Positions 6,689 to 55,507 of a stretch of 64,000 bases of DNA are shown here, piece by piece (the stretch's first letter is position 1; each line of letters opens with the position of its first letter). Where the stretch lies: assembly GCA_024694565.1 (NCBI GenBank), contig JAILJR010000010.1, positions 1 through 64,000 on the forward strand. The letters run 5' to 3'. Source of the DNA: Butyrivibrio sp. GTDB lineage: Bacteria > Bacillota > Clostridia > Lachnospirales > Lachnospiraceae. The notes beneath the pieces are model-generated. The model did not search any database, was not told where the DNA came from, and saw only the letters and a program-made list of their open reading frames with translations. Both the position numbers and the translations under genes were made by a program.

Positions 6689-6900
6689 AATGATGTTGAG
6701 GTCAAAAGTCACCTGGTGGCTCCGTGGCTGTGCATGTTGCACAGGAGGCTGAGAGGCCCTTGTGAGCGGTCGGTACTTAGAGGCCGTACTTTGGCCTCTT
6801 AGTACCGTTACCAGCGAGCAGGAGCGAAAGCGTGCCCGAAGTGATTGTACAATATGCACAGCCATGGAGACACAAGGTGACTTTTGACCTCAACATCATT
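6689..6900 (+). repeat. Palindromic element A (212 bp, full-length)
   Basis: A long nested inverted repeat. The outer arms are perfect over 26 bases (6689-6714 and 6875-6900, beginning AATGATGTTGAGGTCAAAAG). The inner arms GGCTGTGCATGTTGCACA and TGTACAATATGCACAGCC also pair. The 37-base core at 6771-6807 reads CGGTACTTAG, a stem, loop GTACTTT, the stem complement, then CTTAGTACCG. It fills the gap between the small membrane gene at 6912 and the response-regulator leader. It has no protein-coding character beyond a short fortuitous frame. See the findings for the family comparison. Confidence 0.9.
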
Positions 6901-6911
6901 GCATTAACAGA

Positions 6912-7220
6912 TCAGGCATATTTCTCATGGATATATTTCCACATGAAGCCCATGATCAGTACTGATACTACTATGACAACGAGAGCAGCTGTTGGATTGA
7001 AAAAGGATACTATTCCCATAACTATGGCGGCGATTCCCATGAAGAGGATGATCAGACCTGCGTAGAGAGTGTATTCCTTTGGGTGGCGGATGCTCTCGGG
7101 GTTTTCCTTCTTAATTATTTTTACGTCTCTGGTGATTATGAGTCTTGTACCAAAGTACAGGCAGACTGTAAACACCAGTATTTCTATTCCCATCTGATTA
7201 ATTATACCTTCTAAATTCAT
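6912..7220 (-). CDS. Small membrane protein, unknown function
   Basis: 102 residues with three predicted membrane segments: EILVFTVCLYFGTRLII near the N terminus, YAGLIILFMGIAAIVMGIVSF, and ALVVIVVSVLIMGFMWKYI, ending in a charged HEKYA tail. A GAGAGG sequence precedes the ATG. It lies downstream of the mglC terminator and upstream of element A, so it is probably transcribed separately. I do not recognise a family; nothing links it directly to sugar transport except position. Confidence 0.65.
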   Translation of the reverse strand: MNLEGIINQMGIEILVFTVCLYFGTRLIITRDVKIIKKENPESIRHPKEYTLYAGLIILFMGIAAIVMGIVSFFNPTAALVVIVVSVLIMGFMWKYIHEKYA

Positions 7221-7299
7221 AACAAAAACCTCTCAAAAAATCAACGTAACGTCCACTGAATAACCGGGTTGGAAACATGATTCATCATCACGATGGTTG

Positions 7300-7332
7300 A
7301 AAAAAGGGACATGGCACAGGCCATGCCCCTTT
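7300..7332 (-). terminator. Terminator after mglC
   Basis: On the minus strand a GC-rich stem (AAAGGGGCATGGC pairing with GCCATGTCCCTTT, loop CTGT) is followed by six T residues, 17 bases beyond the mglC stop. It has a textbook intrinsic-terminator shape and closes the mglBAC operon. Confidence 0.9.
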
Positions 7333-7348
7333 AGTATACAGGAGTTTA

Positions 7349-8338
7349 TTACTTCTTAGCAACGTACTTACGGATATCAAGTGAGATAGCTACGAAGATA
7401 ACCAGACCGATGAAGATGTACTGAGCGTTGGCGTCTACTCCGAGGTACTGGAGAGCTGCCTTCAAGAGCTCGAATACTGCAACACCGATGATGGCGCTTG
7501 ATACTTTACCACGTCCACCGGTAACTGATACACCACCGATTGTGCAGGCTGCGATAGCTTCCATCTCGTAACCAAGACCAAGGTTAACTGATGCACCACC
7601 GGCCTTTGCACCAAGCATGAAGCCTGCAAGACCATACATCATAGCGGCCTTCATGTAGATGAGTACCATTGTGAGACGAACAGGAACACCGGCAACCTCA
7701 GCAGCCTGAGGGTTTCCACCTATAGCATACATGTACTTGCCGTGACGAGTCATGTTGAAGATGAACCATGTGATTGCTGCAACAATGATTGCGATCCAGA
7801 TCAGATAGCTTATTCCAAGGAACTTACCTGTTGCGATATTTGTATACTCAGTTGTGTATCCACCAAGAGGTGTAGCACCTGTGTAGATAAGTGCAAGACC
7901 ATAAACGATTTCCATCATGGCAAGTGTTGCGATGAATGGAGGAACGTGAAGGAATGCGATGAAGAAACCTGTGATCGCACCGAAAGCACCGGTAATTGCC
8001 AATACAACCAAAAGGGCTACAAAGATGTTGAGTGGCTGCATACCCTCGAAGAATTTGCCTGAATAGTCGATCTTCTGAAGAAGGGTACCTGCGATACATG
8101 CTGCAAAACCGATCATACGTCCTGCTGAAAGGTCGCATCCTGCGGTGATAACGCAGCCTGCAATACCAAGAGCGATTACAAGTCTTGAACTCATATTCAT
8201 GAGAATGTTGAACAGGTTATTGGCTGTCAGGAACCTGTCATTAGTGATACCTGTGTAGATTACCAGGATGAACATAACGATTATAACACCGTTATTGATA
8301 AGAAAATCTATCGCTTTCTGCTGTTTTGTCTTTACCAT
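7349..8338 (-). CDS. mglC: Galactose/methylgalactoside ABC permease
   Basis: A 329-residue integral membrane protein of the ribose/galactose branched permease family, with about eight to ten hydrophobic segments. Family-typical stretches include AGCDLSAGRMIGFAACIAG, FIATLAMMEIVYGLALIYTG, YAIGGNPQAAEVAGVPV and the late IAACTIGGVSVTGGRGKVSS. It forms the membrane channel of the MglBAC importer and should dimerise with two ATPase sites supplied by MglA. It is the third gene of the operon, 18 bases after mglA, with GAGAGGAT before the ATG, and is closed by a strong terminator. The length is normal for the family. Confidence 0.95.
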   Translation of the reverse strand: MVKTKQQKAIDFLINNGVIIVMFILVIYTGITNDRFLTANNLFNILMNMSSRLVIALGIAGCVITAGCDLSAGRMIGFAACIAGTLLQKIDYSGKFFEGMQPLNIFVALLVVLAITGAFGAITGFFIAFLHVPPFIATLAMMEIVYGLALIYTGATPLGGYTTEYTNIATGKFLGISYLIWIAIIVAAITWFIFNMTRHGKYMYAIGGNPQAAEVAGVPVRLTMVLIYMKAAMMYGLAGFMLGAKAGGASVNLGLGYEMEAIAACTIGGVSVTGGRGKVSSAIIGVAVFELLKAALQYLGVDANAQYIFIGLVIFVAISLDIRKYVAKK

Positions 8339-8356
8339 TGTATTATCCTCTCTATA

Positions 8357-9868
8357 TTAGAATTGTGTTGCATAACTCATAACCTTCTCCTGAGTCATGT
8401 CACTTTCCTCTGTTATCTCTCCTCTGAGTTTACCGTTACACATTACATAAAGTCTGTCTGACATACCAAGCAGCTCTGCCATTTCTGAGGATATCATTAT
8501 GATAGCCTTACCCTGTTTGGCCAGATCTGTCATGATCTCATATATCTCATGCTTGGCTCCTACGTCGATACCTCTTGTAGGCTCATCCATGATGAGGATA
8601 TCAGGGTCATTGGCAAGCCATCTTGAAACGATAACCTTCTGCTGGTTACCACCTGAAAGATTGGCAATATGCTGCTGCATGTTTGGTGTCTTGATACTCA
8701 GCTTGTCAATACTGTCTTCGACAACCTTATTGATTTTCTTATGGTCAAGAACAAAACCAGCGGTCAAAAACTTGTTATAAACAGAAACACCAACGTTATC
8801 CTTAATTGAGAGGCAGCCGAAGATACCATTTCCTCTTCTGTCCTCAGTGATCATTCCGATTCCGGCATTCATCGCATCTCTCGGAGACTTGATGGTTACA
8901 TTTTTACCATGGATCGTAATCGTTCCGGCTGAAAGATTTCTTATACCGAACAGACCTTCCATAAGCTCTGTTCTCTGAGCACCAACCAGTCCGCCGAAGC
9001 CGAGGATCTCACCCTTTCTGAGATTGAAGGATATATCCTGGAAAGACTTCTCGTGGATAGAAGAAATTCCCTTGACCTCCATGATCACCTCACCCGGAGT
9101 TCTGTCTTTTTCCGGATAGATATTAGTGAGCTCACGTCCAACCATCTTGGCGATGATATCATCGATTGACATGTCCTTAGCCGGCCAGGTTCCGATATAT
9201 GTACCATCACGCATTACCGTGATATCATCGGCAATTCGCTTGATCTCATCCATCTTGTGAGAGATGTAGATCATGGCAACACCCTTGGCTCTAAGGCCTT
9301 CCATAATCTTGAAAAGTGCCTCAACTTCTTTATCTGATAGGGAAGATGTAGGCTCGTCGAAAATGATAACCTTGGCGTCATGTGAAACTGCCTTCGCAAT
9401 CTCTACTGACTGCATCTGTCCGATAGACAGTGTGTCAAGCTGTGCCTTGGGATCAAAATCCATTCCGACTTCCTTGAGCCACTTCCCTGTTTCTTCGTAC
9501 ATAGTCTTGTGGTCGATCATCTGGATCGGACCGAATTTCTTTACCGGGAATCTTCCAAGGAACATGTTCTCTCCCACACTTCTTGCAAGTACCGGCTGAA
9601 GCTCCTGATGAACCATTGCTATACCTTTTTTCATAGCATCGTCAGGATTTTCTATTGTTGTCTTCTCCCCGTCAATGTATATCTCTCCGGCGTCCATCTT
9701 ATAAATGCCGAAAAGACATTTCATAAGTGTTGATTTACCGGCTCCGTTCTCTCCCATAAGTGCATGGACGGTACCGGGCCTAACTGCCAACTGTACGTTA
9801 TCCAGTGCCTTTACACCGGGAAAGGATTTGGATACACCCCGTAGTTCCAATTTGTACTCTGATGCCAT
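8357..9868 (-). CDS. mglA: Galactose/methylgalactoside ABC ATPase
   Basis: A 503-residue protein with two fused ABC domains, as in all MglA/RbsA proteins. The first has Walker A GENGAGKST near residue 39, the signature LSIGQMQSVEIAKA and Walker B VIIFDEPTSS. The second, from about residue 260, has a degenerate Walker A (GGLVGAQRTELMEG), the signature LSGGNQQKV and ILIMDEPTRGID. It hydrolyses ATP on the cytoplasmic side to drive sugar import through MglC. It follows mglB after a 112-base gap containing a terminator-like hairpin, so it is probably expressed below the level of mglB. Confidence 0.96.
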   Translation of the reverse strand: MASEYKLELRGVSKSFPGVKALDNVQLAVRPGTVHALMGENGAGKSTLMKCLFGIYKMDAGEIYIDGEKTTIENPDDAMKKGIAMVHQELQPVLARSVGENMFLGRFPVKKFGPIQMIDHKTMYEETGKWLKEVGMDFDPKAQLDTLSIGQMQSVEIAKAVSHDAKVIIFDEPTSSLSDKEVEALFKIMEGLRAKGVAMIYISHKMDEIKRIADDITVMRDGTYIGTWPAKDMSIDDIIAKMVGRELTNIYPEKDRTPGEVIMEVKGISSIHEKSFQDISFNLRKGEILGFGGLVGAQRTELMEGLFGIRNLSAGTITIHGKNVTIKSPRDAMNAGIGMITEDRRGNGIFGCLSIKDNVGVSVYNKFLTAGFVLDHKKINKVVEDSIDKLSIKTPNMQQHIANLSGGNQQKVIVSRWLANDPDILIMDEPTRGIDVGAKHEIYEIMTDLAKQGKAIIMISSEMAELLGMSDRLYVMCNGKLRGEITEESDMTQEKVMSYATQF

Positions 9869-9897
9869 ACCTTCTTCCTTTCTGCTTTGCTTCCTTT

Positions 9898-9932
9898 AAA
9901 AAGTGGTGCGGATGAATGAACATCCGCGCCAC
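9898..9932 (-). terminator. Intercistronic hairpin between mglB and mglA
   Basis: On the minus strand GTGGCGCGGATG pairs with CATCCGCACCAC (one C-A mismatch) around a six-base loop, followed by five T residues. It sits 48 bases past the mglB stop and 30 bases before the mglA start. Its form fits a leaky terminator or 3'-end stabiliser that keeps binding protein in excess over the ATPase, as is common in binding-protein operons. Confidence 0.75.
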
Positions 9933-9980
9933 CTGATTTACCTTACACAGATCCTCAAATCTGCCTAGTGTTCCGGTTAA

Positions 9981-11135: not shown

Positions 11136-11178
11136 TTTTCTTCCTCCTTAGAAGTTTTACAATTTGTTTACAATGAGC

Positions 11179-11187
11179 ATTATAGCA
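11179..11187 (-). promoter_or_regulatory. Extended -10 promoter element for mglB
   Basis: On the minus strand TGCTATAAT is a perfect extended -10 (TGn-TATAAT). It would start transcription about 37 bases before mglB. The -35 region is weak (TGTTTT), which fits an activator-dependent promoter, perhaps for the response regulator at 5003. No operator box was identified. Confidence 0.6.
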
Positions 11188-11640
11188 ATGCATATATAGT
11201 AAAAACATAGAGAATTCTTCTTTCAATCTTAAAAATTCTATGATTTTTTTGTGCGCTTTGTACATATTGCCCAAATGGGCTATTCACAGTTTGTTCAAAT
11301 ATTTCAAATTTATTACAATTTATTGCGGAAACTCTAAAAAATTGCCTTCCATAAGGGCATCATGATTCGTATAAATATTTTTCGCTGCAATTCGTCTGCC
11401 CCGGCCAGCAGCTGAATTCTTCATCCTGTTTTATCTTGTAATTTCGATAATTAAATTTCAAAAATATGGTAAAATATAGAAATAAACATGTCGATACTTA
11501 TTAATATATGGTTTACCGTTTACCTGATTTTCAATTCTCAGGACAGATCGGCAATCATATTGAAAGATTTTTATCATCTAAGGAACTGTTTGAAAATAAA
11601 CTTTCAATTTTGTGCCGTGTTTTTGTTCGAGTGCACTGCT
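11188..11640. other. AT-rich divergent intergenic region
   Basis: This non-coding stretch separates mglB from the plus-strand metallopeptidase gene. It is AT-rich and contains no credible reading frame or RNA gene that I can recognise. TGGTAAAAT at 11468-11476 is a possible extended -10 for the plus strand but would give a leader of about 280 bases. Nothing else is supported. Confidence 0.4.
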
Positions 11641-11696
11641 CAAAAATCATGCGAATAGCAGGCTATGTAACTGATTTTTGATAAGTCCGATCGGAC
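11641..11696 (+). promoter_or_regulatory. Structured leader / operator dyads before metallopeptidase
   Basis: CAAAAATCA (11641-11649) pairs perfectly with TGATTTTTG (11672-11680), enclosing a second stem ATAGC/GCTAT and a symmetric 5x5 internal loop. It is followed at once by the perfect 12-base palindrome GTCCGATCGGAC (11685-11696). Both lie 60-120 bases before the metallopeptidase start. The nested stem could be a regulatory RNA leader and the palindrome a dimeric repressor site. No known riboswitch consensus was recognised. Confidence 0.45.
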
Positions 11697-11758
11697 AAAA
11701 AGACAAGCATAATGGAAATCTGTTTTTATACAGTTCCTCCCCTTAAAGGAGTCTGCAT

Positions 11759-14700
11759 ATGAAGAATTTTAGGTGCTTTCTGAGCATATTCTTATGTCTG
11801 TTTATCTTTTTCGCAAATACAAATGCATTATGCGCAAAAGCCGCGCCGCTAAATCAGCCGGATTCCAGGAAGATAGCCTCAGCCATTGACACAACTGCAA
11901 AAACGCAGCATTCCGGTTCTTCAAATTACTATGACAATCTGAAGAACGGAAAATATACTTTCATAAAGTCTTTTCAGATATCGGGGCTGGATGCACCTCA
12001 GAACGGGCATCTGTTGGACGGCACTGCTACTGTTACTGCTGACAACGGATATACCTGGGAAATCCCGGTACTCTGGGTCAACAATGACGGGGATCTGGTT
12101 AAGGTTGCCATCGAAGTTGATGAATCTGTAAGGAGCTATCCCGTATTTGCTTTTTATCTGCCTCAGGGTTATGCGCTGACTTTTGGAGAGAAGTCCAGCT
12201 ACGACATCAAGGTCCCGGATTTTGTGAATACTCTTTTTAACAGGACAGGTGTTGCCACTCTTTCAAATCCCGACCGCGGCATCACATATATCACTCCTCT
12301 TCTTCCGGGAAAAGACAGGGTTCTTGTCAGGGTTCCTGCAGGCTATTACGATGAGCCCGTAAGCACACCCGGCAGCGATGGCGGCGAATCAGAGGGCGGA
12401 ATGCCTTACAACGATGATCCATGTTATCCCTGGCCGGATATCGTTGATCCTGACACTCTTCAGTATGAAAATTATAATCCTGATTTTTCTGCTGACGAAG
12501 CCCAGGACATTGCAAACAGGCACGGAAGTCCGGAGGCTATTGCAGCCATAGGTGCAGACAATGTCGCATGGCTGGTATCCTATATTAAGGATGTGATCGA
12601 GCCTGAAGCAGTAGCTCTTTTGACCCAGAGCTTCCCAGCCTACGCTGCAGCTGCCGCAAATAATGAATTGGGAAAAGAGCTTGGTGTCTATATCTATTAC
12701 TCCGATAAAGATGAGGATCAGGCTGTTGCATATGTAAAAGCAACGCCCGACAACTCCACCGGCGCCGTCAAATATGTGCTGGCAGTTAATTCCTACTACT
12801 ATTACAATCTTGATGAAGATGCGCTTAAAGATAATCCTACATTTAATGACGACTCTGATATCAAGCTGGACACAACCATCATCCATGAAATGATGCATGC
12901 TCTCATGGACGATTACACAAGAACCGGCATGCTTGGAATGCAATATGTTCAGGGTGGTGACTTTTACACATATAACCCGGATGCTGACTTCCCTGAGTGG
13001 TTTGTTGAAGGTATAGCTACTTCTGTGGGAAGCCCTTACCAGTATTGGAACAGCACACTGAAAAACAGCTACGGATATGATGGCACATCCTATTCAAATC
13101 TTCTGGACGCATATCTGTCTGATGAGGCACTTCACCTTGATTATTCAGATGGATTATCGCTCAACGGTGATTCCGACATCAGAGAGAGTGCTTATGTCAG
13201 CGGCTATCTTGCCAACGTATACCTCGGATACCTCGCTGCAAGAAAGTACGACGGAATTGATGCCATCACCGAATACGAAAACGGGGACTACTCTATTAAC
13301 AGCCTTGTAATCAGGAGCGGAGTAAATCATATTCTTGAGGAGCTTCACAATGGAAAAACTCTTGATGACATAATCTTTGAAATCTCGGATTTTGGAGATA
13401 CTGTCTTATACCTTGATACAGATGATTTTGCAGACAAGTTCATCGCAAATGAAGACGACAGCATTACCGACAACGGCATTTCGCTCGCATTTACTACCAA
13501 GTTCCTCAATTATCTTGAGAGTAACAGTATTGGCGAATATGTGGCAAACGGATCTATCCTCACCGATTTCACAGATGTAACACCTATTCTGCTGTCCGCT
13601 GATCTTCTTTCAAATCCGCAGACTGCCCTTATTCTTACAGACAGTCAGGAGCCGGTAGCGTCAACAGTTGATCCCAAGATAGCATTAAAGTCCGGCGGAA
13701 AGTCAGAGACAGGCATTGTTGAGGGTGAAGATTTTGATGATAAGCTGGTTGCATTCCCGGAAAAAAATGTGGCAATGTCCACGGACACTACTGCTGCACC
13801 GGCTTCAAAATCGGATATAAAGGCCGCAGATACGGCTACTGCTGCTACTTCTAATGAAAAGAATTTAGAAGACAATATAGAAAAAGGAATTACGGCTAAT
13901 GAGAAGAATTTGAAGTCCGATACAGAAAGCGGAACCGTTACTAATGAAAAGAATTTGAAAGCTGATACAGAAAACGGAACCGTTACTAATGAAAAGAATT
14001 TGAAAGCTGATACAGAAAGCGGACCTTCGGGTAATGAAAAGGATTTGAAAGCTTCCGAAGAAAATCAAATTGTGGTTCCCGTTGATAATCAGGAAGCTTC
14101 ATCAGCTGAAAAATCTATGATTGACAACAATGATTCAAAAGCTATCACCAGTCTGGAAGAAAGCGCGATAACTGCCAATGCCAAAGAAGAAATTTCAAAA
14201 TCTCAAAGCAGCGTCGATTCAAAAGAAATAAGCTCAATATTTGATGCCATACAAACCGGAATTGATGAACACAAAGAGATAGCAGAACGCAGTGCAAATT
14301 CCTCTGATCAGACTACTACTGCTTCTGCCGGCGGAGTGAATGCTTCTGGCGAAGAGACAGCACTCTTTAACGGCGGGGCTGATCCTGAAACGAAAACAGA
14401 AGCAGATCAGCAAACTTCTTCAGCTTCTTCCAATCCGTCAGAGACTCCATCAGGTGAGAATGAGTCTTCCGAAATTGAAAGCAGTTCATCTTCCGATAGC
14501 GATGCTCTATCACCGGAAATGATGGCTGACGCACAGTCAATCAGAAATGCTTTAGCTGAAGGACAGATACATTCATTAACCCCCGAACAGCTTGCTATTC
14601 TTTCAGAGGATACATCAGGCTCTGACAATTCTTCTGAGTCAGCAAATAAGAGTACTGCTCCGGGTGAGAAACAAAATGATTCGTCTGTATCAGCTGATAT

Positions 14701-15481
14701 AGCACAGAAAACCAGCACCGGCAATGTTGATGGAGCACAGGATAACCCAGCTACTTCAGCAGATTTGACTCAGGGGACAGGTCAAAGCAAGGCTGATGAA
14801 TTGCAGTACGACTCAACCTCTTCTGCAGATTCAGCTCAGGGTGCAGAGCAAGGCAAGGCTGATGAAACACAATACAGCCCAACCTCTTCTGCAGATTCAG
14901 CTCAGGATGCAGAGCAAAGCAAGGCTGATGAAACACAATCCGGCCCAACCTCTTCTGCAGATCCGGCTCAGGCATCCGGGCAAGACAAGGCTGTTGAATC
15001 ACAGAACGTTCCAACCTCTTCAGAAGATTCTACTCAGGGAAGAGAGAATGATAAAGCTGAAGAACCGGAGGAAAATACTGCTGCTTCTTCTACTGCTACG
15101 CAGGACACAGATGCTGGCAAGACTGATGATTCACAGGATAATACTGATAATTCATCTGATGCCCCGAAGGACGATGAAGCAGGAAAGGCTGATGATTCAC
15201 AAGTAACCGAAGTTGTAACGAATGATAAAGCACAGGATGATATAACTAACGGCAGTGAAACTGAGCAGGAAAATGGGTTGACTGATTCAGGTTCAGCAGT
15301 TACAATAGACGAGTTAGAAAACGCTCCGGCAGATATTTCTATTTCAGGTCCGGAACCGGAAGCAGATGATACAGATGACAATTCATCAGACGATCAGCAG
15401 ATACTTGATGCGCTGCCTGCTACCGATGACAATGACAGTGAGAGTGATTCAGCTGCTGATACTGCTCCACCTGTAGAATAA
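11759..15481 (+). CDS. Secreted zinc metallopeptidase with long repetitive acidic tail
   Basis: 1240 residues, with a good ribosome site AAAGGAG seven bases before the ATG. Residues 1-29 form a signal peptide ending LCAKAA. The middle region holds an HEMMH zinc motif at residues 376-380, and FPEWFVEGIATS follows with Glu417 as the probable third ligand, the arrangement of gluzincin peptidases. After about residue 640 the protein becomes low-complexity and rich in Ser, Thr, Glu, Asp and Gln. It contains five 15-residue NEKNL-type repeats (about residues 700-775) and about seven degenerating 22-residue repeats around KADE-Q-TSSADSAQ (about residues 1000-1150). No sortase motif or C-terminal membrane anchor is visible, so it may be released or held non-covalently. 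The substrate is unknown. Confidence 0.85.
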   Translation: MKNFRCFLSIFLCLFIFFANTNALCAKAAPLNQPDSRKIASAIDTTAKTQHSGSSNYYDNLKNGKYTFIKSFQISGLDAPQNGHLLDGTATVTADNGYTWEIPVLWVNNDGDLVKVAIEVDESVRSYPVFAFYLPQGYALTFGEKSSYDIKVPDFVNTLFNRTGVATLSNPDRGITYITPLLPGKDRVLVRVPAGYYDEPVSTPGSDGGESEGGMPYNDDPCYPWPDIVDPDTLQYENYNPDFSADEAQDIANRHGSPEAIAAIGADNVAWLVSYIKDVIEPEAVALLTQSFPAYAAAAANNELGKELGVYIYYSDKDEDQAVAYVKATPDNSTGAVKYVLAVNSYYYYNLDEDALKDNPTFNDDSDIKLDTTIIHEMMHALMDDYTRTGMLGMQYVQGGDFYTYNPDADFPEWFVEGIATSVGSPYQYWNSTLKNSYGYDGTSYSNLLDAYLSDEALHLDYSDGLSLNGDSDIRESAYVSGYLANVYLGYLAARKYDGIDAITEYENGDYSINSLVIRSGVNHILEELHNGKTLDDIIFEISDFGDTVLYLDTDDFADKFIANEDDSITDNGISLAFTTKFLNYLESNSIGEYVANGSILTDFTDVTPILLSADLLSNPQTALILTDSQEPVASTVDPKIALKSGGKSETGIVEGEDFDDKLVAFPEKNVAMSTDTTAAPASKSDIKAADTATAATSNEKNLEDNIEKGITANEKNLKSDTESGTVTNEKNLKADTENGTVTNEKNLKADTESGPSGNEKDLKASEENQIVVPVDNQEASSAEKSMIDNNDSKAITSLEESAITANAKEEISKSQSSVDSKEISSIFDAIQTGIDEHKEIAERSANSSDQTTTASAGGVNASGEETALFNGGADPETKTEADQQTSSASSNPSETPSGENESSEIESSSSSDSDALSPEMMADAQSIRNALAEGQIHSLTPEQLAILSEDTSGSDNSSESANKSTAPGEKQNDSSVSADIAQKTSTGNVDGAQDNPATSADLTQGTGQSKADELQYDSTSSADSAQGAEQGKADETQYSPTSSADSAQDAEQSKADETQSGPTSSADPAQASGQDKAVESQNVPTSSEDSTQGRENDKAEEPEENTAASSTATQDTDAGKTDDSQDNTDNSSDAPKDDEAGKADDSQVTEVVTNDKAQDDITNGSETEQENGLTDSGSAVTIDELENAPADISISGPEPEADDTDDNSSDDQQILDALPATDDNDSESDSAADTAPPVE
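13850..14074 (+). repeat. 45-bp tandem repeats inside metallopeptidase gene
   Basis: About five in-frame copies of a 45-base unit encode NEKNLKADTENGTVT-like peptides. The middle copies are nearly identical at the DNA level, suggesting recent expansion by slippage or unequal recombination. Confidence 0.85.
14775..15212 (+). repeat. 66-bp tandem repeats inside metallopeptidase gene
   Basis: About seven in-frame copies of a 66-base unit encode 22-residue repeats beginning QGAEQGKADETQ and ending TSSADSA. The first three or four are close copies; later ones decay towards the C terminus. Confidence 0.8.
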
Positions 15482-15545
15482 TTCTATAGCAAAGACCCAT
15501 GCAAGCAAAATTGTATTCAATCCCTCTTGCATGTTCCGTGCAAAA

Positions 15546-15574
15546 AAATGCACCTGCTAAAGGCAGGTGCATTT
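15546..15574. terminator. Bidirectional terminator
   Basis: AAATGCACCTGC pairs perfectly with GCAGGTGCATTT around a five-base loop. T-rich sequence follows on the plus strand and a run of seven A residues precedes it, giving a T run on the minus strand. It serves the metallopeptidase gene and the convergent gene at 15716. Confidence 0.9.
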
Positions 15575-15677
15575 CTTTTATATCAGCCAATCAGACTGCT
15601 GCTGGCTAGTTCACCAAATAACAAATTTTAAAATTTCGTTAGATTTGACCCGAAGTAGACACTTGTAATGGAATCTT

Positions 15678-15713
15678 ATGAGTTGTCCGACAAAAGCTCG
15701 CCAGGGCGACTCA
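15678..15713. repeat. Mini-hairpin derivative of palindromic element (alpha arm)
   Basis: ATGAGTTGTCC at the left pairs with GGGCGACTCAT at the right (two G-T wobbles), with CGACAAAAGCTCGCCA between. It is a collapsed copy of the element arms seen at 34000 and 16327, with the whole core lost. It lies two bases from the stop codon of the gene at 15716. Confidence 0.75.
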
Positions 15714-15715
15714 TC

Positions 15716-16228
15716 TTATTCGAATGTAACCGTATGGCTTATTGCGTAACCACTCTCCTCTTTTTCATAGTCTGCGCTATAAGAGAAGCTTTCCCCGGAC
15801 GTTTTTGAATTCTGGATGTTTGCAGCGTACCATTCAGGGAAGACATCTTCTGAAATCAGCATCTTAAAGGTGAGCACAGAGCTATCGCTGTAATTATTCT
15901 TTATAACCAGGGCGAGTTCCCTGTAATAGTCATCCAATGTGTCATACGTCACAGGACTTACAAGTCCGAGATTTTTTGTTCCGCCCTTGATATCCTTTTC
16001 TGTACTGTTTCGCTTTTCAATTTCCTGCAGAAGCGCTTCTATATCTGCCTTGGATACATCATCTTCGTCTAAAGAAGCTGCTTTATTGCTGTTGTTTTTT
16101 GAAAGTTTGACGGCAATATTTGAAAAGCCACTTGCCAATGATGGATTCTTTGCGCAAAGAATGATCATCAGACATGAAAAAATGATCAATCCAAGCATAA
16201 TATAAAGAACTCTAGAAAATGTCTTCAT
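15716..16228 (-). CDS. Membrane-anchored protein, unknown function
   Basis: About 170 residues: one N-terminal membrane helix (VLYIMLGLIIFSCLMIILC), then an acidic linker with a short helical stretch (SKADIEALLQEIEKRN) and an extracytoplasmic domain rich in Tyr and Ser. The ATG at 16228 is preferred to the upstream TTG because GGAGATAGG precedes it. No family is recognised. It is the last of a minus-strand group of four membrane-bound or secreted proteins (15716-19333) and may belong with them. Hairpin derivatives of the palindromic element lie on both sides. Confidence 0.6.
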   Translation of the reverse strand: MKTFSRVLYIMLGLIIFSCLMIILCAKNPSLASGFSNIAVKLSKNNSNKAASLDEDDVSKADIEALLQEIEKRNSTEKDIKGGTKNLGLVSPVTYDTLDDYYRELALVIKNNYSDSSVLTFKMLISEDVFPEWYAANIQNSKTSGESFSYSADYEKEESGYAISHTVTFE

Positions 16229-16326: not shown

Positions 16327-16392
16327 ATGAGTCGCCCGACAAAAGTTCGCCCTTCCAGCTCCGGCTGTGCAAGCTTTTGTCGGGCGACTCAT
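16327..16392. repeat. Short palindromic element (19-bp perfect arms)
   Basis: ATGAGTCGCCCGACAAAAG at the left and its exact complement CTTTTGTCGGGCGACTCAT at the right flank a 28-base loop that still contains CTCCGGCTGTGCA, the start of the inner arm of full elements. This is an internally deleted member of the family in the 315-base gap between two genes. Confidence 0.9.
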
Positions 16393-16411
16393 GATGATCA
16401 TATTCTAAACA

Positions 16412-24648: not shown

Positions 24649-24851
24649 TGATACAATTCAGTGGTCAGCCGGGCCGGGACAGGCCGCCGCGATGTATGGC
24701 TGCCCGGGGGACGCTCTCGCTCAGTGAAAAACGTAGCGGTACTAAGCGACCAAAATACGGTCGCTAAGTGCCGACGTTTTTCAATGCCCTCCGGCTCAGC
24801 CATACATTCGCTCTGGCCTGTCCCGGCCCGGCTGACCACTGAATTGTATCA
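24649..24851 (-). repeat. Palindromic element B (203 bp)
   Basis: The outer arms are perfect over 37 bases (24649-24685 and 24815-24851, starting TGATACAATTCAGTGGTCAG). Inner arms ATGTATGGCTG/CAGCCATACAT and TGAAAAACGT/ACGTTTTTCA also pair. The core at 24737-24773 is in reverse orientation, with stem GCGACC and loop GTATTTT when read on the minus strand. It lies between the SH3-protein terminator and the GntR-clpC promoter. The arm sequences differ entirely from element A. Confidence 0.92.
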
Positions 24852-29462: not shown

Positions 29463-29601
29463 GGCCGGTCATAATTTGCAAACACCTTGGGCACGCTTGC
29501 GCTCCTGCTCGCTGGCAGCGGTACTAAGCGAGCAAAGTACGCTCGCTAAGTGCCGGCCGCTCGCAAGGGCCACTTCGGTTGTTTGTAAATTATGACCGGC
29601 C
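29463..29601 (-). repeat. Palindromic element C (139 bp) inside the pur operon
   Basis: Outer arms of 22 bases (29463-29484, GGCCGGTCATAATTTGCAAA and on; 29580-29601) match except for one G-T wobble. The core at 29519-29555 has stem GCGAGC and loop GTACTTT when read on the minus strand. The conserved non-palindromic strings GGGCACGCTTGCGCTCCTG and AAGGGCCACTTCGG are present. It sits between purE and purM on the transcribed strand and would be part of the pur mRNA if transcription continues. Confidence 0.9.
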
Positions 29602-33989: not shown

Positions 33990-33999
33990 AAAAATATTA

Positions 34000-34209
34000 A
34001 TGAGTTGTCCGACAAAAGTTCGCCAGGCCGGCTCCGGCTGTGCATATTGCACAATAGGCTGAGATGCCCTATGAGCTCGTCGGTACTTAGGCACCGTATT
34101 TTGGTGCCTTAGTACCGCTACGAAGCGAAAGGAGCGAAAGCGTGCCCGAAGTGATTGTACAATATGCACAGTCGGGGCCGGACTGGTGAGCTTTTGTCAG
34201 ACGATTCAT
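34000..34209 (+). repeat. Palindromic element D (210 bp)
   Basis: Outer arms are alpha type (34001-34024, TGAGTTGTCCGACAAAAG and on; 34185-34208) with five transitions between them, four of which keep G-T pairing. Inner arms GGCTGTGCATATTGCACAA and TTGTACAATATGCACAG pair. The core at 34081-34117 has stem AGGCACC and loop GTATTTT. It lies between the dead channel gene and the pyrE promoter. Confidence 0.9.
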
Positions 34210-34217
34210 ATTAATAG

Positions 34218-39541: not shown

Positions 39542-42500
39542 CTAGTCCTTGAGTCTTCCTATTTCATTCAATATCGTCCTCATGCCATCAAGATCCTCTG
39601 CATCGAGCCTTTCCTTCAGCCGTGCGAATACACTGCTGTCGGATTCGGGGAGAGTGTAGTCGGAAAGTTCGTTGAAGGTTCCTTTGAGGGCGGAGATGTT
39701 TTTCTGCTTTACGCCCTCACTTACTGCTTCATACATGCATTCAAGGAGGAAATCATTTATCCCGGCTGCGGGGTGAGGGGACTTTTCTTCAATTGTCAGA
39801 AGATCAGGCTCCTCCTGCACATCCTGCCCTTTGAACAGCTCTGACAGCGGCTCCCTAAAGCCCATCAGCTCATCAATCAGCTCCTTGTGGTGGGCGCTTA
39901 TAAATTCTGCATCATTTTCTTTTCCTGCCATTTCAAGCGCCCTGGCATCCTCAGAGAGCTTAAGTGCTCCCACCAGTTTTGCTGAGCTCTTTAGCGCATG
40001 AACCTTGATGGTGTAGTTCTCGATATCACCGCTGTCATAGTAGCCCGAAAGCTCTTTTGCCTTTGGTTCTATGGAATCATAAAAGATCTTCAGCACCGTC
40101 CTGAAGGACTCCTCCGAGCCGCTGTTTTCGATGGCCACCTCGGGGTCTATTCCTTCTATATTAAAGTACCATGCATCTTCGCCTTTTGCTCTATCTGATG
40201 ATACGGATCTGTCCGCGGCATATGCAGCTCTTCCATTTGCATCATCTGAAAATCCGGCTTTGTTCGTGGCATATGCAGCTCTTCCATTTGCATATTCTGA
40301 AACCCCGGATCTGTCCGCGGCACTTTCATAGGCTTTATCCTGCCCGTCGCCGCTGTTTTCATAAACATATTCGCCGTCAGGTTCGGCAGTATCAGTTTCT
40401 TCTGCATCACTGTCTTCGTCGGTAAATATCAGCTTGCCAATATTGTAGGGTGCTTCTGTCTTCTCCAGATACAACAGTCCAAAGGAGCCGGCGCCCACGC
40501 TGAGGGACAGGGCTGCAGAGGACTTCTGGAAGATGATCCTGTCAAAGGAAAATCTCCCCTCAATACGCTTTTTTATTCTCTCGAGGGTCTCTGCCTGAAC
40601 ACCCGAATAGGTCACAAACAGAAGCTCCGGGTCAGGATTTCCCCACTTGGGCAGTGCATAGTCAACATAGCGGTCATAGCTCTTTTCCCTGTTGCCGAGC
40701 TTGATCCTGTCGACCTTTATTGTGTCGTTGTTCACAAGAATAAAGGGCTTTAAGCCGATGGAGGTCATGATCTCATAGATGCCTCTTCCAACAAAGCCGC
40801 GCCTGAACAGTATTCCCGGGTCACTGGACATGAAGCTGCAGTGGATGTTTTTCTTCATCCTGGTCAGCTCCGAGATTATTCCTGCCGGAGTCAGACCCTG
40901 CACTGACATATTGTAGGCGATCAGTGTCAACATTCCTACGGAACTTGAATTGAAGCCTGAGTTAAATACAAAAACATTTCCATATCCCTTTGAAGCTTCC
41001 TTTGCCCTCTCATACTCCTTGCTGATGCAGCTTCCAAGAGTGATGTATATGACCTGATGTGCCTTTTTGAGTTCCTTTGCAAAAAAGTACTCGAATTCCT
41101 CCACCGTCGGAGGCTCTGACACAAAGCTCTTGCCTTCATTCATATACCTTATGATCTCATCAGACTCCACCTCTATGCCGTCATAGTACTCCCTGCCATC
41201 CACATGGATCCTGAAGGGGATGATGTCTATCTGAAGATCCCTCAGGGTCTTTTCCGGAAGGTCGCACATGCTGTTGGTCGCAATGATGACAGGTGTCTTC
41301 TTGTTGTACCCCTTTGCTGTGTTCATCCTTGTCCTGTCAGCACCCTGGCCGGAGGAATATATTATCTTCGACTCAGGGAGATGTGCAGCTATCATCTCCT
41401 CGAGCTGCTGCCCTGATACAGGCTTTAAAAGATACCCGTCAAAGCCGCTGACCCTGTAGAGCTCCCTGTTCTCCGAGCCCGCATTGGCTGTAAGGACTAT
41501 TATCGGCGCATGGTTATTGAGCCCGCCTGTCTGCTTTCTTATGCGCTGCAGGCACTCTATGCCATCCATCTGCTGCATCAGGTGATCCATCAGTATAATG
41601 TCGTACCTCTTACCCATAGTCATCATGAGAGCAGCTTCGCCCGAGGTCACTGTGTCAACCGTGATACCCGTCCCATCTAAAAGCTTCTTCTCAACCTCAA
41701 GGTTCATCTCATTGTCGTCCACTATCAGAATCCTTGCATCGGCTGCAACAAACGAGGCCTCGTGTCTTCCTGTCCTGTTCGTGCTGCTATAGCCGGTGAT
41801 GCTTATGTCACCTACAGCCTGAGGGTTTGATACCTTCTGCCACAGTGACACCGTAAACGCGGAGCCCTGTCCATACACGCTGCTGACAGATATGCTTCCG
41901 CCCATAAGGTCAAGGAGCTGCTTCACTATGGAAAGACCCAGTCCGGTGCCCTCGATCTTTCTGTTTTTCTCCTCATCTGCCCTTTGGAAGGCGTCAAAAA
42001 GATATGGAATGGCTTCCTGCCTGATGCCCATGCCCGTATCAGAGACTATCATGGTAAGAAGGATACTGTCATCCTTGATATCATCTTTCTCAACCTGAAG
42101 CGTTACTGTGCCCTCTTTGGTGTACTTGACGGCATTGTTCAGAAGGTTTACAAGGATCTGCTTGATCCTTACTTCGTCGCCAAAGAGCTCCCTGGGTATC
42201 GAGGGATCGATCTGCACCTTCAGCTCAAGCCCTTTTTGCTCGGCGCGAAGCCATATCATATTGACGATCTCGGAGAACATGGACTCAACCTCATAGTTGA
42301 CGGGGATGATGTCCATCTTTCCGGCTTCGATCTTAGACACATCCAGGATGTCGTTGACAAGGGCAAGGAGCATTCTTCCTGCGCCCTGGATATTTCCGGC
42401 ATCCTTTCTGATCTCCTCTGAGGCATCCTCCTGACGCAGGATTATCTCATTGAGACCGAGGATTGAATTTATCGGCGTTCTTATCTCATGGCTCATACTG

Positions 42501-43132
42501 GAAAAGAAGCGGTTCTGAGACATGTTGAGCTCTTCATACTTTCTGGCTTCTTCCCTGGCCCTCTTATTTTCATCCCTGAATAGCCGCTCAACAAACCAGA
42601 CCATGAGACAGCACACTATTCCCACCTGGACCATTGACAGCAGTGAGTCAATGTGAAACAGCTCATTGTTGTGATCCGTGATCAGCTCAGGATGGTAATA
42701 GTCTATGGAATAAAGGATAACAGACTCCGCCGTCAGTATCATCAGCATGATAGGACGCCATTTTCCGGTAAGCACAAGGCCGGAGTAAAGATAGGCAAAA
42801 ATGATCCACATTACCGCTCCGCCCCTAATTCCTCCGCTGGTGAAAAAAACGGTCGGAAGAGTCACAAAAACAAAGCCCAGCACTATAAGTCTTACCGCCA
42901 GGTTTACACGATTCTTCCGCACGCACAGCACAGTAATGACAGGCACAATTATCATTGTTCCAATAAGGGTGATGATCTCTATTCTGTTTTCACCAAAGAT
43001 AAGGTCTCCAATAAGGGCAATGACTGCCATGAACTCAGTCACCATGGTGAGAAGGAAAAATGTGCGTTCCCTCTGGCTTCTCCCCGGATCAGTAAGGCCC
43101 TTTGCCACGCTCTTAAATAGCTTCGCGATCAC
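39542..43132 (-). CDS. Hybrid histidine kinase with receiver, DegV and HPt domains
   Basis: 1196 residues. Six or so membrane helices (20-182) precede a HisKA domain with His215 in SSMSHEIRTP. An HATPase domain (315-435: ILVNLLNNAVKYTKEG, DTGMGI, GTGLGLSIVKQ) follows, then a receiver with Asp516 in DIILMDHLMQ and Lys570 in YLLKPVSG. A full-length DegV fatty-acid-binding domain occupies about 614-895 (VIIATNSMCDLPEKTLRDLQ, VIYITLGSCISKEYERAKEA, SFGLLYLEKTE). A linker has two ANGRAAYA repeats, and an HPt domain has His1045 in VHALKSSAKLVGA. DegV proteins present bound fatty acids to FakA kinase; fused here it may sense lipid state. Its start overlaps the preceding hybrid kinase by four bases. 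Confidence 0.88.
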   Translation of the reverse strand: MIAKLFKSVAKGLTDPGRSQRERTFFLLTMVTEFMAVIALIGDLIFGENRIEIITLIGTMIIVPVITVLCVRKNRVNLAVRLIVLGFVFVTLPTVFFTSGGIRGGAVMWIIFAYLYSGLVLTGKWRPIMLMILTAESVILYSIDYYHPELITDHNNELFHIDSLLSMVQVGIVCCLMVWFVERLFRDENKRAREEARKYEELNMSQNRFFSSMSHEIRTPINSILGLNEIILRQEDASEEIRKDAGNIQGAGRMLLALVNDILDVSKIEAGKMDIIPVNYEVESMFSEIVNMIWLRAEQKGLELKVQIDPSIPRELFGDEVRIKQILVNLLNNAVKYTKEGTVTLQVEKDDIKDDSILLTMIVSDTGMGIRQEAIPYLFDAFQRADEEKNRKIEGTGLGLSIVKQLLDLMGGSISVSSVYGQGSAFTVSLWQKVSNPQAVGDISITGYSSTNRTGRHEASFVAADARILIVDDNEMNLEVEKKLLDGTGITVDTVTSGEAALMMTMGKRYDIILMDHLMQQMDGIECLQRIRKQTGGLNNHAPIIVLTANAGSENRELYRVSGFDGYLLKPVSGQQLEEMIAAHLPESKIIYSSGQGADRTRMNTAKGYNKKTPVIIATNSMCDLPEKTLRDLQIDIIPFRIHVDGREYYDGIEVESDEIIRYMNEGKSFVSEPPTVEEFEYFFAKELKKAHQVIYITLGSCISKEYERAKEASKGYGNVFVFNSGFNSSSVGMLTLIAYNMSVQGLTPAGIISELTRMKKNIHCSFMSSDPGILFRRGFVGRGIYEIMTSIGLKPFILVNNDTIKVDRIKLGNREKSYDRYVDYALPKWGNPDPELLFVTYSGVQAETLERIKKRIEGRFSFDRIIFQKSSAALSLSVGAGSFGLLYLEKTEAPYNIGKLIFTDEDSDAEETDTAEPDGEYVYENSGDGQDKAYESAADRSGVSEYANGRAAYATNKAGFSDDANGRAAYAADRSVSSDRAKGEDAWYFNIEGIDPEVAIENSGSEESFRTVLKIFYDSIEPKAKELSGYYDSGDIENYTIKVHALKSSAKLVGALKLSEDARALEMAGKENDAEFISAHHKELIDELMGFREPLSELFKGQDVQEEPDLLTIEEKSPHPAAGINDFLLECMYEAVSEGVKQKNISALKGTFNELSDYTLPESDSSVFARLKERLDAEDLDGMRTILNEIGRLKD

Positions 43133-47348: not shown

Positions 47349-47355
47349 AACAATA

Positions 47356-47361
47356 ATTATA
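47356..47361 (-). promoter_or_regulatory. -10 box next to GGDEF-gene start
   Basis: TATAAT on the minus strand ends seven bases before the ATG at 47348, placing the transcript start at or next to the start codon. TTGAAT lies 19 bases upstream as a weak -35. Confidence 0.55.
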
Positions 47362-47434
47362 CGCCATGGTGAGCATAATTATTCAATTTTATATACATTT
47401 TATAAAATCGGCGTTTCTATGTGACACAACTTCG

Positions 47435-47464
47435 TTGCCATGGGTACACATAATATCGTATAAT
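47435..47464 (+). promoter_or_regulatory. Strong sigma-A-type promoter for membrane protein gene
   Basis: TTGCCA (47435-47440) and TATAAT (47459-47464) are 18 bases apart. Transcription would start near 47471, about 40 bases before the ATG at 47510, with GAAGGAGG in the leader. Confidence 0.85.
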
Positions 47465-47509
47465 AATATAGTAAGTAAACATTTACACTTTGCGAAGGAG
47501 GATTTTTTT

Positions 47510-48082: not shown

Positions 48083-48147
48083 CCCCTCATCCAATCCATA
48101 AATCATAAACAAAAAATTATCAAAATAAATTAAAAAATCAAGTCAAA

Positions 48148-48184
48148 AAAACGGGACCCCGGATGAATTCCAGGATCCCGTTTT
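48148..48184 (+). terminator. Terminator after the 47510 gene
   Basis: AAAACGGGA pairs with TCCCGTTTT, with two further G-C pairs beyond one C-A mismatch and a loop of about 13 bases, followed by T residues. It stands 65 bases after the stop. Confidence 0.85.
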
Positions 48185-48210
48185 AAATTGAATTATTCTT
48201 ATAGCCTCTC

Positions 48211-48400
48211 AGGCAAACGCTCGCCCGGCCAGCCCCGGCTGTGCATATTGCACAAGCAACTGAGTGGCCCTACGAGCTCGTCGGTACTTAGAGGCCGTAC
48301 TTTGGCCTCTTAGTACCGCTACGAAGCGAAGGGAGCGCAAGCGTGCCCGAAGTGATTGTACAATATGCACAGCCGGGGCTGGCCGGGCGAACATTTGCCT
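48211..48400 (+). repeat. Palindromic element E (190 bp, longest arms)
   Basis: Arms of 45 bases (48211-48255, AGGCAAACGCTCGCCCGGCC and on; 48356-48400) match at 42 positions, the three differences being transitions. The core at 48282-48318 has stem AGAGGCC and loop GTACTTT. It fills the gap between a plus-strand terminator and the stop of the SpoIIE-type gene. Confidence 0.93.
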
Positions 48401-48412
48401 CCACAGCCTAAA

Positions 48413-53200: not shown

Positions 53201-53277
53201 AAAGCCAGGCCGATCAGCACCCTGAAAGCTCTTTTTTCAATTTTTTGTTTACGTTTATTTGAATTATACAATGTCAT
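50260..53277 (-). CDS. Two-component-type beta-propeller sensor with 7TM end
   Basis: About 1005 residues. An N-terminal hydrophobic leader (VLIGLALFMLIFLLDVNRG) is followed by about 14 Reg_prop-type repeats (for example RLWVGTNDAGVYLIDGG, RLWIGTARQYGVLRYDHG) forming two beta-propellers. A Y_Y_Y domain (ITIFPFVLNYSLINPQVSYQ, LPLGSYEFVMGVKDP) comes next, and then seven membrane helices to the end. There is no kinase, GGDEF or phosphatase output domain; output is probably supplied by the overlapping SpoIIE-type gene. The ATG at 53277 follows AGGAG by nine bases; the earlier frame starts in repeat DNA. Propeller sensors of this kind usually detect polysaccharide fragments. Confidence 0.88.
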   Translation of the reverse strand: MTLYNSNKRKQKIEKRAFRVLIGLALFMLIFLLDVNRGRCAEEAAPEQKDGDIKLSVDPTEDKDGFLSVLYDIRNGLPTSEANAIAQTKEGFIWVGSYSGLIRYDSNRFERPEYLSDIANVRCLHVDSRNRLWVGTNDAGVYLIDGGDITHFGKEEGLESLSVRDLTEDTDGSVYLAMASGVGVIGPKLNYHQLDFKELNGQSISYIRSDNAGIVYGITITGDIFSINEGKPEAYIDHRDFPFENAVALQPDPVNKRHIFIGTEHYIYYGTIADSFLASKQWSISPLLGARNLKYIDSHLWVCARNGFGKLSNGLIKTVDNVQMNNTIDNIMTDDEGNLWVSSSRQGVIKIVPNQFLDIYDKYNLDADVINSVCHYEGNMIIGAEKGLNVIGKGIVQDSLPVTEAVTASGKKIETTDLLDYLSGIRIRFVMTDSRNRLWIGTARQYGVLRYDHGKLLQFSEEDGILYDAVRSVEECSDGSYIVSTNGGINVIRGDKVVSGYDRDDGFAVSFILSAIEGFNKEIIAGSDGGGIYIIKDGKVNTITTADGLLSDVILRVKKSTTRKLYWIVTGNSLAVMTPDYQVTTIRDFPYSNNYDIYENSKGDLWVLGSSGIYVIPSEYFDLNEEALPVFFGIPNGLPYVATANSYSELTSDNTLYMAGNDGVVKVNIDRPLDSIGRIKLVLPYVDADGAQIYADNEGNFNIPAGTKRITIFPFVLNYSLINPQVSYQLRGFDSAMTILNKNDLTSETYTNLPLGSYEFVMGVKDPISGTETSRTFQIIKGMQLSTGAAGSVILDASALFFLAGLIIYTSSNRKRGRFDDRIFFVMIILCIFMCISDITSYLLEGSNITFGRGLMIITNTIYYFGIIIFPFLIYIYLEYRNDKSCFKNWKKYLLIGIPCSISSFVVLLSPFTGWVFRITETNEWRSGPLDEYIFIPIVVYLILVFIRLRKINVNMTVLGIIIVGTGFLAELWIPYVSATSFTYALTLLCIHIYAISKQMIEEKT

Positions 53278-53310
53278 AAAGATCAATCTCCTGACATAAT
53301 CTGATAAACT

Positions 53311-53440
53311 GACCGTCAAAAGCTCGTCCGGACGGCTCTGGCTGTGCATATTGCACAGGAGGCTGAGAGGCCCTTGCGAGCGGTCGGTACTTTGAGCCCG
53401 TACTTTGGGCTCTTAGTACCGCTACCAGCGAGCAGGAGCA
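53311..53440 (+). repeat. Palindromic element F, right arm missing
   Basis: The left side (CGTCAAAAGCTCGTCCGG, then GGCTGTGCATATTGCACA) and the core (53385-53421, stem GAGCCC, loop GTACTTT) are intact. After GCGAGCAGGAGCAGAAG the element stops and merges into the decayed kinase/DegV gene. The stop codon of that frame and its last residues are inside the element. Confidence 0.88.
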
Positions 53441-55186
53441 GAAGGCACCTTTGATGCACCAGTCTCTATTGAAGCAGCCCCCTCTTTGTTCGCAGTTACC
53501 CTTTGGCCATAGGCTTCCCCTTTAACACTCTCTTCATGGTTTTGCTCCATACTTTGTGATTCGTCGCTTATCTCCTGCGCCTGATCCGGTTCTTCCTCGG
53601 AAGTCATTATCACTTCCCTTGGAAGCAGTGCTGAGAGGTTGTAATTCTTGGAGCTCCTTTCAAGGAAAAGAATTCCAAAGGAACCCGGACCGCAGTTTGA
53701 GAATATTCCGGCTGAAGCCTTCTGGAAGATCAGATGCTCAAAGGGCACGATGCCTCTGACCATATCCTCTATCCACTCAAGGTCTGATTCATCCATTCCC
53801 GCGTAGGTGATAAAGGCAAGTTCCTTATCGGGCTTATTTTTTCCTGACAGGGCATTCTTTATATACTTCTCATAACAGCGCCTGTCTCTGCCGAACAAAA
53901 ATCCACCGACGCCCATTTTATCGTTCCTGACCTTCAGCACAGGGCGAAGCCAGAGCGTGTTCAGGATGCTGTTCATGGCGGGACTTATCTGTCCTCTCCT
54001 TGCCATGGTTTCCGTGCTTCTTATGACGAAGCTGCACTGGATGCGCTTTTTGGCTTCATCAAGCTCTGATACGATTTTCTCAACCGGATAGTTCTGCCTC
54101 GCAAGTCTTCCGGCTATCATTACAAGCAGACCTGCTGCGGAAGAGAGGGTCTCGGATTCTACTACCGTCACGTTTCCAAAGCTCTTTGCGGCAGCTCTGC
54201 TCATCTCAAAGTCCTTACTTGCACCTGACGTGAGCGCGATATAGATGACATGGTGCGCCCCCTTCAGCAGGTCAGAGAAGAACTTTGTAAGGGCTTCTAC
54301 TGACGGCGGCTCCGAGGACACATACCTGTTTTCAACACCCATGTAGCGCAAAAGACCGTCTGAATCTATATCAATATTATCCCAGAAAACACCCTCTTTG
54401 GTAATTACCACGAATGGAATTATTGCAATTTCCAATTCTTTTATTATACTCTTCGGAAGGTCAGTCATGCTGCTTGCAGCAATGACAACAGGCTTCTTTC
54501 TGGAGTAGCCCGAGGCTGTTCTTATCTGCGAGCCGGTCATCTCACTTCTCTCGGAGGTAATGACTTTTTCCTCGGGCAGCTGGTTTATAAGCATCTCCTC
54601 AAGCTGCATCCCTGATACCGGCTTGACAAGATATCCGTCGAAGCCGCTATTGTTGTAAAGCTCGATGTTCTCTCCGCCTGCGTTTGCAGTCAGAATAACA
54701 ACAGGAACGTCGTCAATATTGTTTTTGAGTAGCGCCGTCATGCCTCCGATGACATTGAGGGGAGTTCGAAGCTCATGGGAGATGTTGGCAAGAAAGTCCT
54801 CCATATCGGTCTCGTTCTCTTTTACCGTCTCCTTCCAGGAGTCAAGCTTCTCTCTCTACTATTCTTGTGCTGATGGTCATTCTGGTGAAGATATACAGCA
54901 TCATTACAGTTCCGATGTGAAAAACTATCTTGACAATATTGAACGGGCTGAGGTCAGTCTCAGTACTCCGCATCAGGAAAACAAACTGGATTATCATTAT
55001 GATCCAGTACTCAACAATGATCAGATTGATCAGCTCTATCCTGTCAAATACTGCAAAGCATGACATGAAAAGCATGGTGGCAACAGACACGTCAAGGAGA
55101 CTCGTCTCATGTATTCCGTGATAGAAAACAAGAAATGCTACTGTGGAAGTTGATAATATCAGACGTTCTTTCCTTATATCGTTCAC
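53422..55186 (-). pseudogene. Collapsed relic of a kinase plus kinase-DegV cassette
   Basis: A GTG at 55186 behind AGGAGG opens 114 residues resembling the membrane part of the 43129 kinase (FLVFYHGIHETSLLDVSVAT). The frame ends at a TGA just after a GA-rich tract; adding one GA unit would continue it as EKLDSWKETVKENETDMEDF into the second frame (from 54804). There HisKA residues (NISHELRTPLNVIGG) run at once into the second half of a receiver (DVPVVILTANAGGENIELYN), so the ATPase domain and the receiver aspartate are gone. A near-complete DegV domain follows (VVIAASSMTDLPKSIIKELE). The HPt domain is replaced by palindromic element F. It is non-functional as a kinase; the DegV part could still fold if translated. 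Confidence 0.85.
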
Positions 55187-55240
55187 GTTGGACCTCCTGC
55201 GCGGAAGAATGGGGAGAATGAAATGCGCATTGACAATTAG

Positions 55241-55249
55241 ATTGTACCA
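55241..55249 (-). promoter_or_regulatory. Possible extended -10 for the relic kinase gene
   Basis: TGGTACAAT on the minus strand resembles an extended -10 element about 55 bases before the GTG at 55186. The -35 is poor. Confidence 0.35.
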
Positions 55250-55323
55250 TCATCACGGTATTGCGTGCGGGGAAGTGTGGAATTTTAAGAATTTTTTTAC
55301 TATTTGGATAGTTGAGGAGTGAC

Positions 55324-55507
55324 GCAAAATCGGGCCCGAACAGCCACGTCTGTGCATCTTGTACAATCACTTCGGGCACGCTCTCGCTCCTTTCGCTTCG
55401 TAGCGGTACTAAGCTCGAAAGGACCTCGCTAAGTACCGACGAGCTCATAGGGCCACTCAGTTGCTAGTGCAAGATGCACAGCCGCGGCTGTCCGGGCCCG
55501 ATTTTGC
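55324..55507 (-). repeat. Palindromic element G (184 bp, degenerate core)
   Basis: Arms of 41 bases (55324-55364, GCAAAATCGGGCCCG and on; 55467-55507) match at 37 positions. The core at 55404-55438 is two bases short and its stem is imperfect, with loop GTCCTTT. It carries CACTTCGGGCACGCTCTCG and AGGGCCACTCAGTTGC, as other copies do. It looks like an older copy, located between the relic kinase gene and the DUF1269 terminator. Confidence 0.88.

Follow-up and report, generated by a model that had tools for sequence, protein, structure and literature searches.

Miniature mobile elements are usually known by their ends, and their interiors drift. Several families of this kind have been described in bacteria, and ERIC/IRU, Correia/NEMIS, RUP, and RU-2 are presented in a review as elements of ~100–200 bp that are non-coding or nearly so, are highly base-paired, mostly carry inverted repeats and target duplications, and mostly have no known transposase, each in one species group (PMC2229807). 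A second group consists of the repetitive extragenic palindromes (REP), with their BIME and REPIN arrangements and RAYT enzymes; many REPs start with GTAG or GTGG (PMC2817692). We analyzed 64,000 nucleotides of a Butyrivibrio sp. genome (GenBank assembly GCA_024694565.1, contig JAILJR010000010.1, positions 1 to 64,000; hereafter, the window), in which a sequence-only reading had drawn attention to seven large intergenic palindromes. These seven are copies of one small, gene-less mobile element of the Butyrivibrio group. In length, base pairing, and ends the element is like ERIC/IRU and its companions, yet it is set apart from their descriptions by an interior fold that spans genera while the ends and arms differ. 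With REP/BIME and REPIN-RAYT it shares a GTAG-like hairpin foot on one strand and many dispersed copies, but it is much longer, has 5–6 bp duplications, and has no linked RAYT.

That the seven loci form one family, in both orientations, was borne out by a covariance model trained on 26 copies, five of them from the window (6689, 34000, 55324, 29463, and 24649). The model matches all seven at E 1e-18 or better, four on the + strand and three on the − strand. The single architecture proposed for them stood in part. An inverted-repeat search recovered arms at six of the seven loci (22–56 nt, 84–95% complementary), while the 53311 locus keeps its left arm and core and has lost its right arm; the inner arm GGCTGTGCATATTGCACA is present in 34000, 48211, and 53311 (in the last, in the left arm only), is altered in 6689 and 55324, and is absent from 24649 and 29463. 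The two copies that were folded against 200 dinucleotide shuffles gave z-scores of −12.15 and −14.29, values that none of the 200 shuffles reached.

The element is abundant in its own genome (G000: 3.47 Mb in 249 contigs, 82% complete). BLAST with one copy returned 72 pieces, of which many were partial or lay on the opposite strand, and a core motif search, covering the fetched stretches that make up part of the genome, counted at least 59 distinct copies; the model search found at least 46 matches. Because a limited number of candidates was scored per genome, such model counts are lower bounds: when two further genomes were each searched alone, matches rose from 46 to 82 in G037 and from 18 to 75 in G216 (E 0.001 or better, with weak opposite-strand matches possibly included). 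The wider search of Lachnospiraceae proposed by the sequence-only reading gave matches in 53 of the 79 genomes of the same genus and also in members of six other genera of the family. In an order-wide sample, 14 of 196 genomes match, namely six of the same genus, seven from those six other genera, and one from another family, the last with two weak partial matches only. An exact-match pattern search of viral contigs gave no hits, nor did plasmids searched with one full copy as the query.

The ends are discrete. Aligned copies stop abruptly at TGAGTYGYCCGACAAAAGC (type B) or TGATGTTGAGGTCAAAAG (type A), and the element is ~208 bp long with ends TGAG../TGATG... With up to three mismatches allowed, this genome holds 79 type A and 192 type B ends, while the reversed patterns give 0 and 3; set beside the 59 core copies, these numbers mean that core-less ends are common. 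The statement that no obvious target-site duplication exists was wrong. Among 53 two-ended elements, collected in the source genome by their type A or B ends, 23 are flanked by an exact duplication of at least 5 bp (15 of 5 bp, seven of 6 bp, and one of 9 bp), whereas 2000 re-pairings of left with right flanks gave 0.83 such elements on average and never more than 5.2. Two places, L002 and L231, enter the 53 twice, with alternative left ends, and the set also contains a probable assembly fold-back (L047), an apparent extra-long palindrome at the end of C48. Judged against the usual description of a miniature inverted-repeat transposable element (MITE), the family is short, apparently non-coding, multi-copy, and dispersed, with terminal inverted repeats and target-site duplications.

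Several features of these insertions bear on how they arose. Hybrids with one A-like and one B end (L028:11630–11836 and L042:944–1142) are among the 23 with duplications, and full outer-arm pairing is therefore unnecessary for insertion. Several elements or ends are placed end to end with one target-sized spacer between them, an arrangement suggesting that newer copies entered the target duplicated by an older one. The left and right arms of type A copies differ in shared ways, so these copies were multiplied by DNA copying and were not mended through a hairpin, and we rejected arm homogenization via a hairpin intermediate for this reason. Exchanged cores or ends, either A ends around a B core or A and B together, occur at L028, L031, L032, L038, and L042 and point to recombination between copies.

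The copies in the window illustrate much of this range. One full-length element of 208 bp, at 34001..34208 on the + strand, has type B ends (TGAG..TTCA) in inverted repeat, a core model match at 34042–34157, and the duplication TATTAA on its left (33995..34000) and right (34209..34214). Another full-length element, at 6691..6898 (+, core 6732–6847), has type A ends (TGATGTTGAGG..CCTCAACATCA) and no exact duplication left, and a solitary type B half end lies 4 bp ahead of it at 6667..6686 on the − strand. The copy at 24649..24851 (−, core 24697–24812) bears arms of a third kind (type C, TGATACAATTCAGTGG..), and the one at 29463..29601 (−, core 29479–29595) bears short arms of a fourth kind. Ends have diverged at 48211..48400 (+, core 48243–48358), one of the copies folded against shuffles, and at 55324..55507 (−, core 55364–55477), and the truncated copy spans 53311..53460 (+, core match 53346–53460). 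The list of seven was incomplete: besides the half end, it omitted two internally deleted copies on the + strand, one of 35 bp at 15679..15713, with TCTTA on both sides by eye (15674–15678 and 15714–15718), and one of 64 bp at 16328..16391, with no exact duplication.

Shortened derivatives were examined at 11 places. In six, the whole sequence can be assigned to the two termini of full copies, which meet with an overlap of a few bases, the pattern that deletion inside a palindrome would leave; L046 and L226 can be assigned only in part, and L225, L038, and L053 have end-like sequence flanking unrelated interiors. The element at L225, of 69 bp with a 5-bp duplication TTTTA, is the main ground for thinking that ~20 bp per end may be sufficient for movement. 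We also considered whether the core is a recent insertion into empty palindromes, which is unsupported given that six of the 11 miniatures are joins of full-copy ends; the other five are compatible with either history.

Inside these ends lies the conserved part of the element. Between genomes, identity is 62.5% inside the model (2852 pairs), 27.7% and 28.0% in the adjoining outer 25 nt, and 27.4% in the far flank, and between the same genus and other genera it is 57.2% in the core and 26.4% and 26.6% in the outer 25 nt. This comparison used 77 copies from 39 genomes, with orthologous copies retained, genome labels assigned by hand from search tables, the core on the model alignment, and the flanks ungapped. 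The fold of ~115 nt consists of a long stem, a 2-nt bulge, a mismatch, a GUNNUUU-like loop, and a side hairpin GC-GNRA-GC. In 85 distinct rows of the alignment, standard pairs make up 96.6% of cells and all 24 pairs have changed on both sides, with a covariation score of 0.599 as against 0.165 when shuffled and at most 0.090 with slid partners; this alignment was fitted to the covariance model and hence leans towards the fold. In the MAFFT alignment from which the fold was first predicted, two-sided changes are seen at 16 of 24 pairs. The bulge is CU in 57 rows, UU in 14, gapped in nine, and otherwise in five, and the stem mismatch is U-U in 72 rows and A-A in seven. A GNRA loop caps the side hairpin in 74 of the 85 rows (GAAA 32, GAGA 19, GCAA 10, GGAA 6, GGGA 3, GTAA 1, GCGA 1, and two with an extra C-G pair), and the 11 rows without it are precisely the 11 weakest model matches, partial or on the opposite strand. 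Outside the 116-nt model, only 37 of 77 copies had more arm complementarity than the 99th percentile of mismatched pairs, and very long arms are therefore not universal.

The folded interior is thus conserved across several genera; arms and ends are specific to lineages. The type B end of the source genome was found in one of 78 other same-genus genomes, once (up to three mismatches), and even within the source genome, 24649, 29463, and a few relatives have yet other arms. G037 carries many near-identical copies whose arms differ from those of the source genome, with TATA-like tetranucleotide flanks and other palindromes adjoining, and G216, from another genus, has a third set of arms. At L360, L362, L365, L367, and L373 of G037, palindromic elements of different kinds follow one another with TATA, TATG, or CATA between them, and these series include a ~140-bp hairpin-rich unit without the core.

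In its covarying fold and GNRA loop the core is like the structured RNAs of Rfam, but against Rfam 15 the element had no match at gathering score, the sole hit being a lysine riboswitch elsewhere in L162; permissive searches gave a best E of 0.37, far below gathering scores, or nothing up to E 2. A literature search restricted to open-licence papers found no description of this element.

The search for an enzyme that moves the element gave candidates and no partner. No Pfam transposase domain was found in the 40 window open reading frames (ORFs) that were scanned (E limits 1, 1e-5, and 1e-8), so the claim that the window holds no transposase stands for these 40, the remaining ORFs being unscanned. 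Elsewhere in the source genome, an IS1634-family gene (589 aa, 238 bits against a cut-off of 100) begins ~280 bp from a copy of the element, on a contig that ends shortly past the gene; no ends matching the element were found around it. This is the one gene of the genome above the family cut-off, two others being below it; the terminal repeats found were unlike those of the element, and the right end of L390 is cut off. The family leaves 5–6 bp duplications, and the gene is a candidate mover only. A G037 locus that we take to be IS605-like was dismissed as partner since its ends are unlike the element arms by eye. An autonomous partner within paired ends was also sought. At L215 (C102 of the source genome, 70–1287), two type A half ends that face each other across 1172 bp enclose an unclassified 275-aa ORF, and a type B end sits 3 bp beyond each of them; we provisionally took these ends to be chance neighbors.

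Taken together, the discrete ends, target duplications, dozens of dispersed copies, and shortened derivatives are the reasons for reading the family as mobile, and of the two options left by the sequence-only reading it was the new non-autonomous mobile element that fared better. We consider it probable that this is a MITE-like, non-autonomous DNA element with a conserved folded module inside changing ends. Under such a scheme, a putative transposase supplied in trans would recognize ~20 bp of each end, insertion at short T...A targets would leave the 5–6 bp duplication, and the folded module of ~95–115 nt between the ends would be passed on as cargo or serve transposition as an accessory, with the ends around it changing between lineages; the core would presumably function as RNA or as folded single-stranded DNA. 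Several observations weigh against this account. Thirty of the 53 two-ended elements have a shorter exact duplication (<5 bp) or none, the ends and duplications were worked out in the source genome only, and in G037 the flanks are a near-constant TATA, which makes target choice and duplication indistinguishable there. None of the one rve and six DDE_Tnp_1 loci of the 82% complete source genome, with terminal repeats sought at five of the seven, showed element-like ends as its own termini. The comparison of empty sites suggested by the sequence-only reading was carried as far as a single synteny search, in which orthologous regions are ~68–82% identical; individual sites were not followed, and no empty site was demonstrated.

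On one hand, the element could be a family of structured non-coding RNA genes acting in trans, with mobility secondary and the long arms serving as a closing stem. The core is what such a view would lead one to expect, since it is conserved across genera, has the GNRA loop in all 74 strong rows, and favors G-U over A-C by 32 to 11 with one loop-closing pair omitted (88 to 17 with that pair), although these cells are not independent events. The arms do not follow: G-T and A-C mismatches number 87 and 87 in 71 copies of other genomes and 94 and 93 in 51 copies of the source genome, or 65 and 81 and 54 and 68 in narrower arms, and RNA-level selection on the arms is accordingly unsupported, G-T being no commoner than A-C. 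What the arms do show, in copies from many genomes, is an excess of A-G over C-T mismatches of about two to one on the strand of the GNRA loop (101 to 48 and 108 to 21; 84 to 47 in the narrowest arms), an asymmetry that marks one strand and has been counted for the RNA view, though it would suit any folded single strand, RNA or DNA. Hairpins of the form GC-GNNA-GC are exceptionally stable as DNA too (PMC4686876). The proposal of a structured RNA family is half borne out, as to the fold, its compensatory changes, and its loop, and not as to the material. Also, 26 of the 79 same-genus genomes gave no model match, and the neighboring genes show no clear orientation bias (43 copies in the same sense, 36 antisense, 25 convergent, and 10 divergent, among 114 copies with crude ORF calling). 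We therefore regard RNA genes as unlikely. The same gene counts bear on whether these are bidirectional terminators or mRNA-stabilizing palindromes selected at gene 3′ ends. The 25 convergent gaps against 10 divergent would suit that idea, but in 67 of 114 copies the closer of the two gene boundaries is a stop, when stops make up hardly less of all boundaries (129 of 228), the element is not consistently followed by a T run as judged by eye, and the duplications show insertion, all of which makes this explanation hardly credible.

On the other hand, the family could be an ordinary MITE with an inert interior, the core being similar by descent alone. Internal deletions are tolerated, and short ends are seemingly enough in at least one copy, as this would predict; however, arms at background identity between genomes around a core at 62.5%, with compensatory changes, are the reverse of its prediction, and it seems to us quite improbable. 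A further idea, that the core is a REP-like hairpin mobilized by a RAYT working on single-stranded DNA, draws on the other strand, where the core hairpin is imperfect and often starts with GTAG or GCAG at its foot; this tetranucleotide, mostly one or the other on that strand, is partly paired into the longer stem. Two RAYT-like genes are present in the source genome. However, Y1 enzymes are not expected to leave 5–6 bp duplications, and five of nine genomes without a Y1_Tnp match, some of them incomplete, still carry the element. The 21 longer Y1 genes inspected either adjoin different repeats (GGGACGGTTC, a variant of it, or others) or have no repeat beside them, and a search of these loci with the core motif gave no match, so we abandoned the link and think a RAYT mechanism very unlikely. 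RAYT-like genes of the genus at L109 (C41 of the source genome), L110, L113, L115, L128, and others are bracketed by a palindromic repeat with GGGACGGTTC or a variant of it, by appearance a REP family of their own.

Other features of the window lie outside this family. Two more inverted repeats, at 11581–11738 around 11617–11704, have a sequence that looks unlike the element. DegV domains share an ORF with the histidine kinase domain HisKA at 39542–43132 and 53422–54804, which we judge unusual-looking, and the ORF at 39542–43132 additionally has HATPase and response regulator domains. The ORFs at 11759–15481 and 56469–63920, of 1240 and 2483 aa, had no Pfam match at E 1e-8.

Returning to the MITE-like element with a conserved module, a bolder form of that reading is possible, if doubtful. 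The core could be a portable folded module, of RNA or single-stranded DNA, that was handed between transposon ends in the course of Lachnospiraceae history and acts on transposition by recruiting or tuning whichever transposase is present, in effect a parasite of transposons defined by its fold rather than its ends. Whatever the mechanism, conservation across several genera lies here in the interior, and variation between lineages in the arms and ends, the opposite of what is usual for miniature elements; whether different transposases can cooperate with one small folded nucleic acid thereby becomes testable. As an undescribed structured motif with up to 82 model matches per genome, it is also one that annotators and assemblers of these genomes will meet often.

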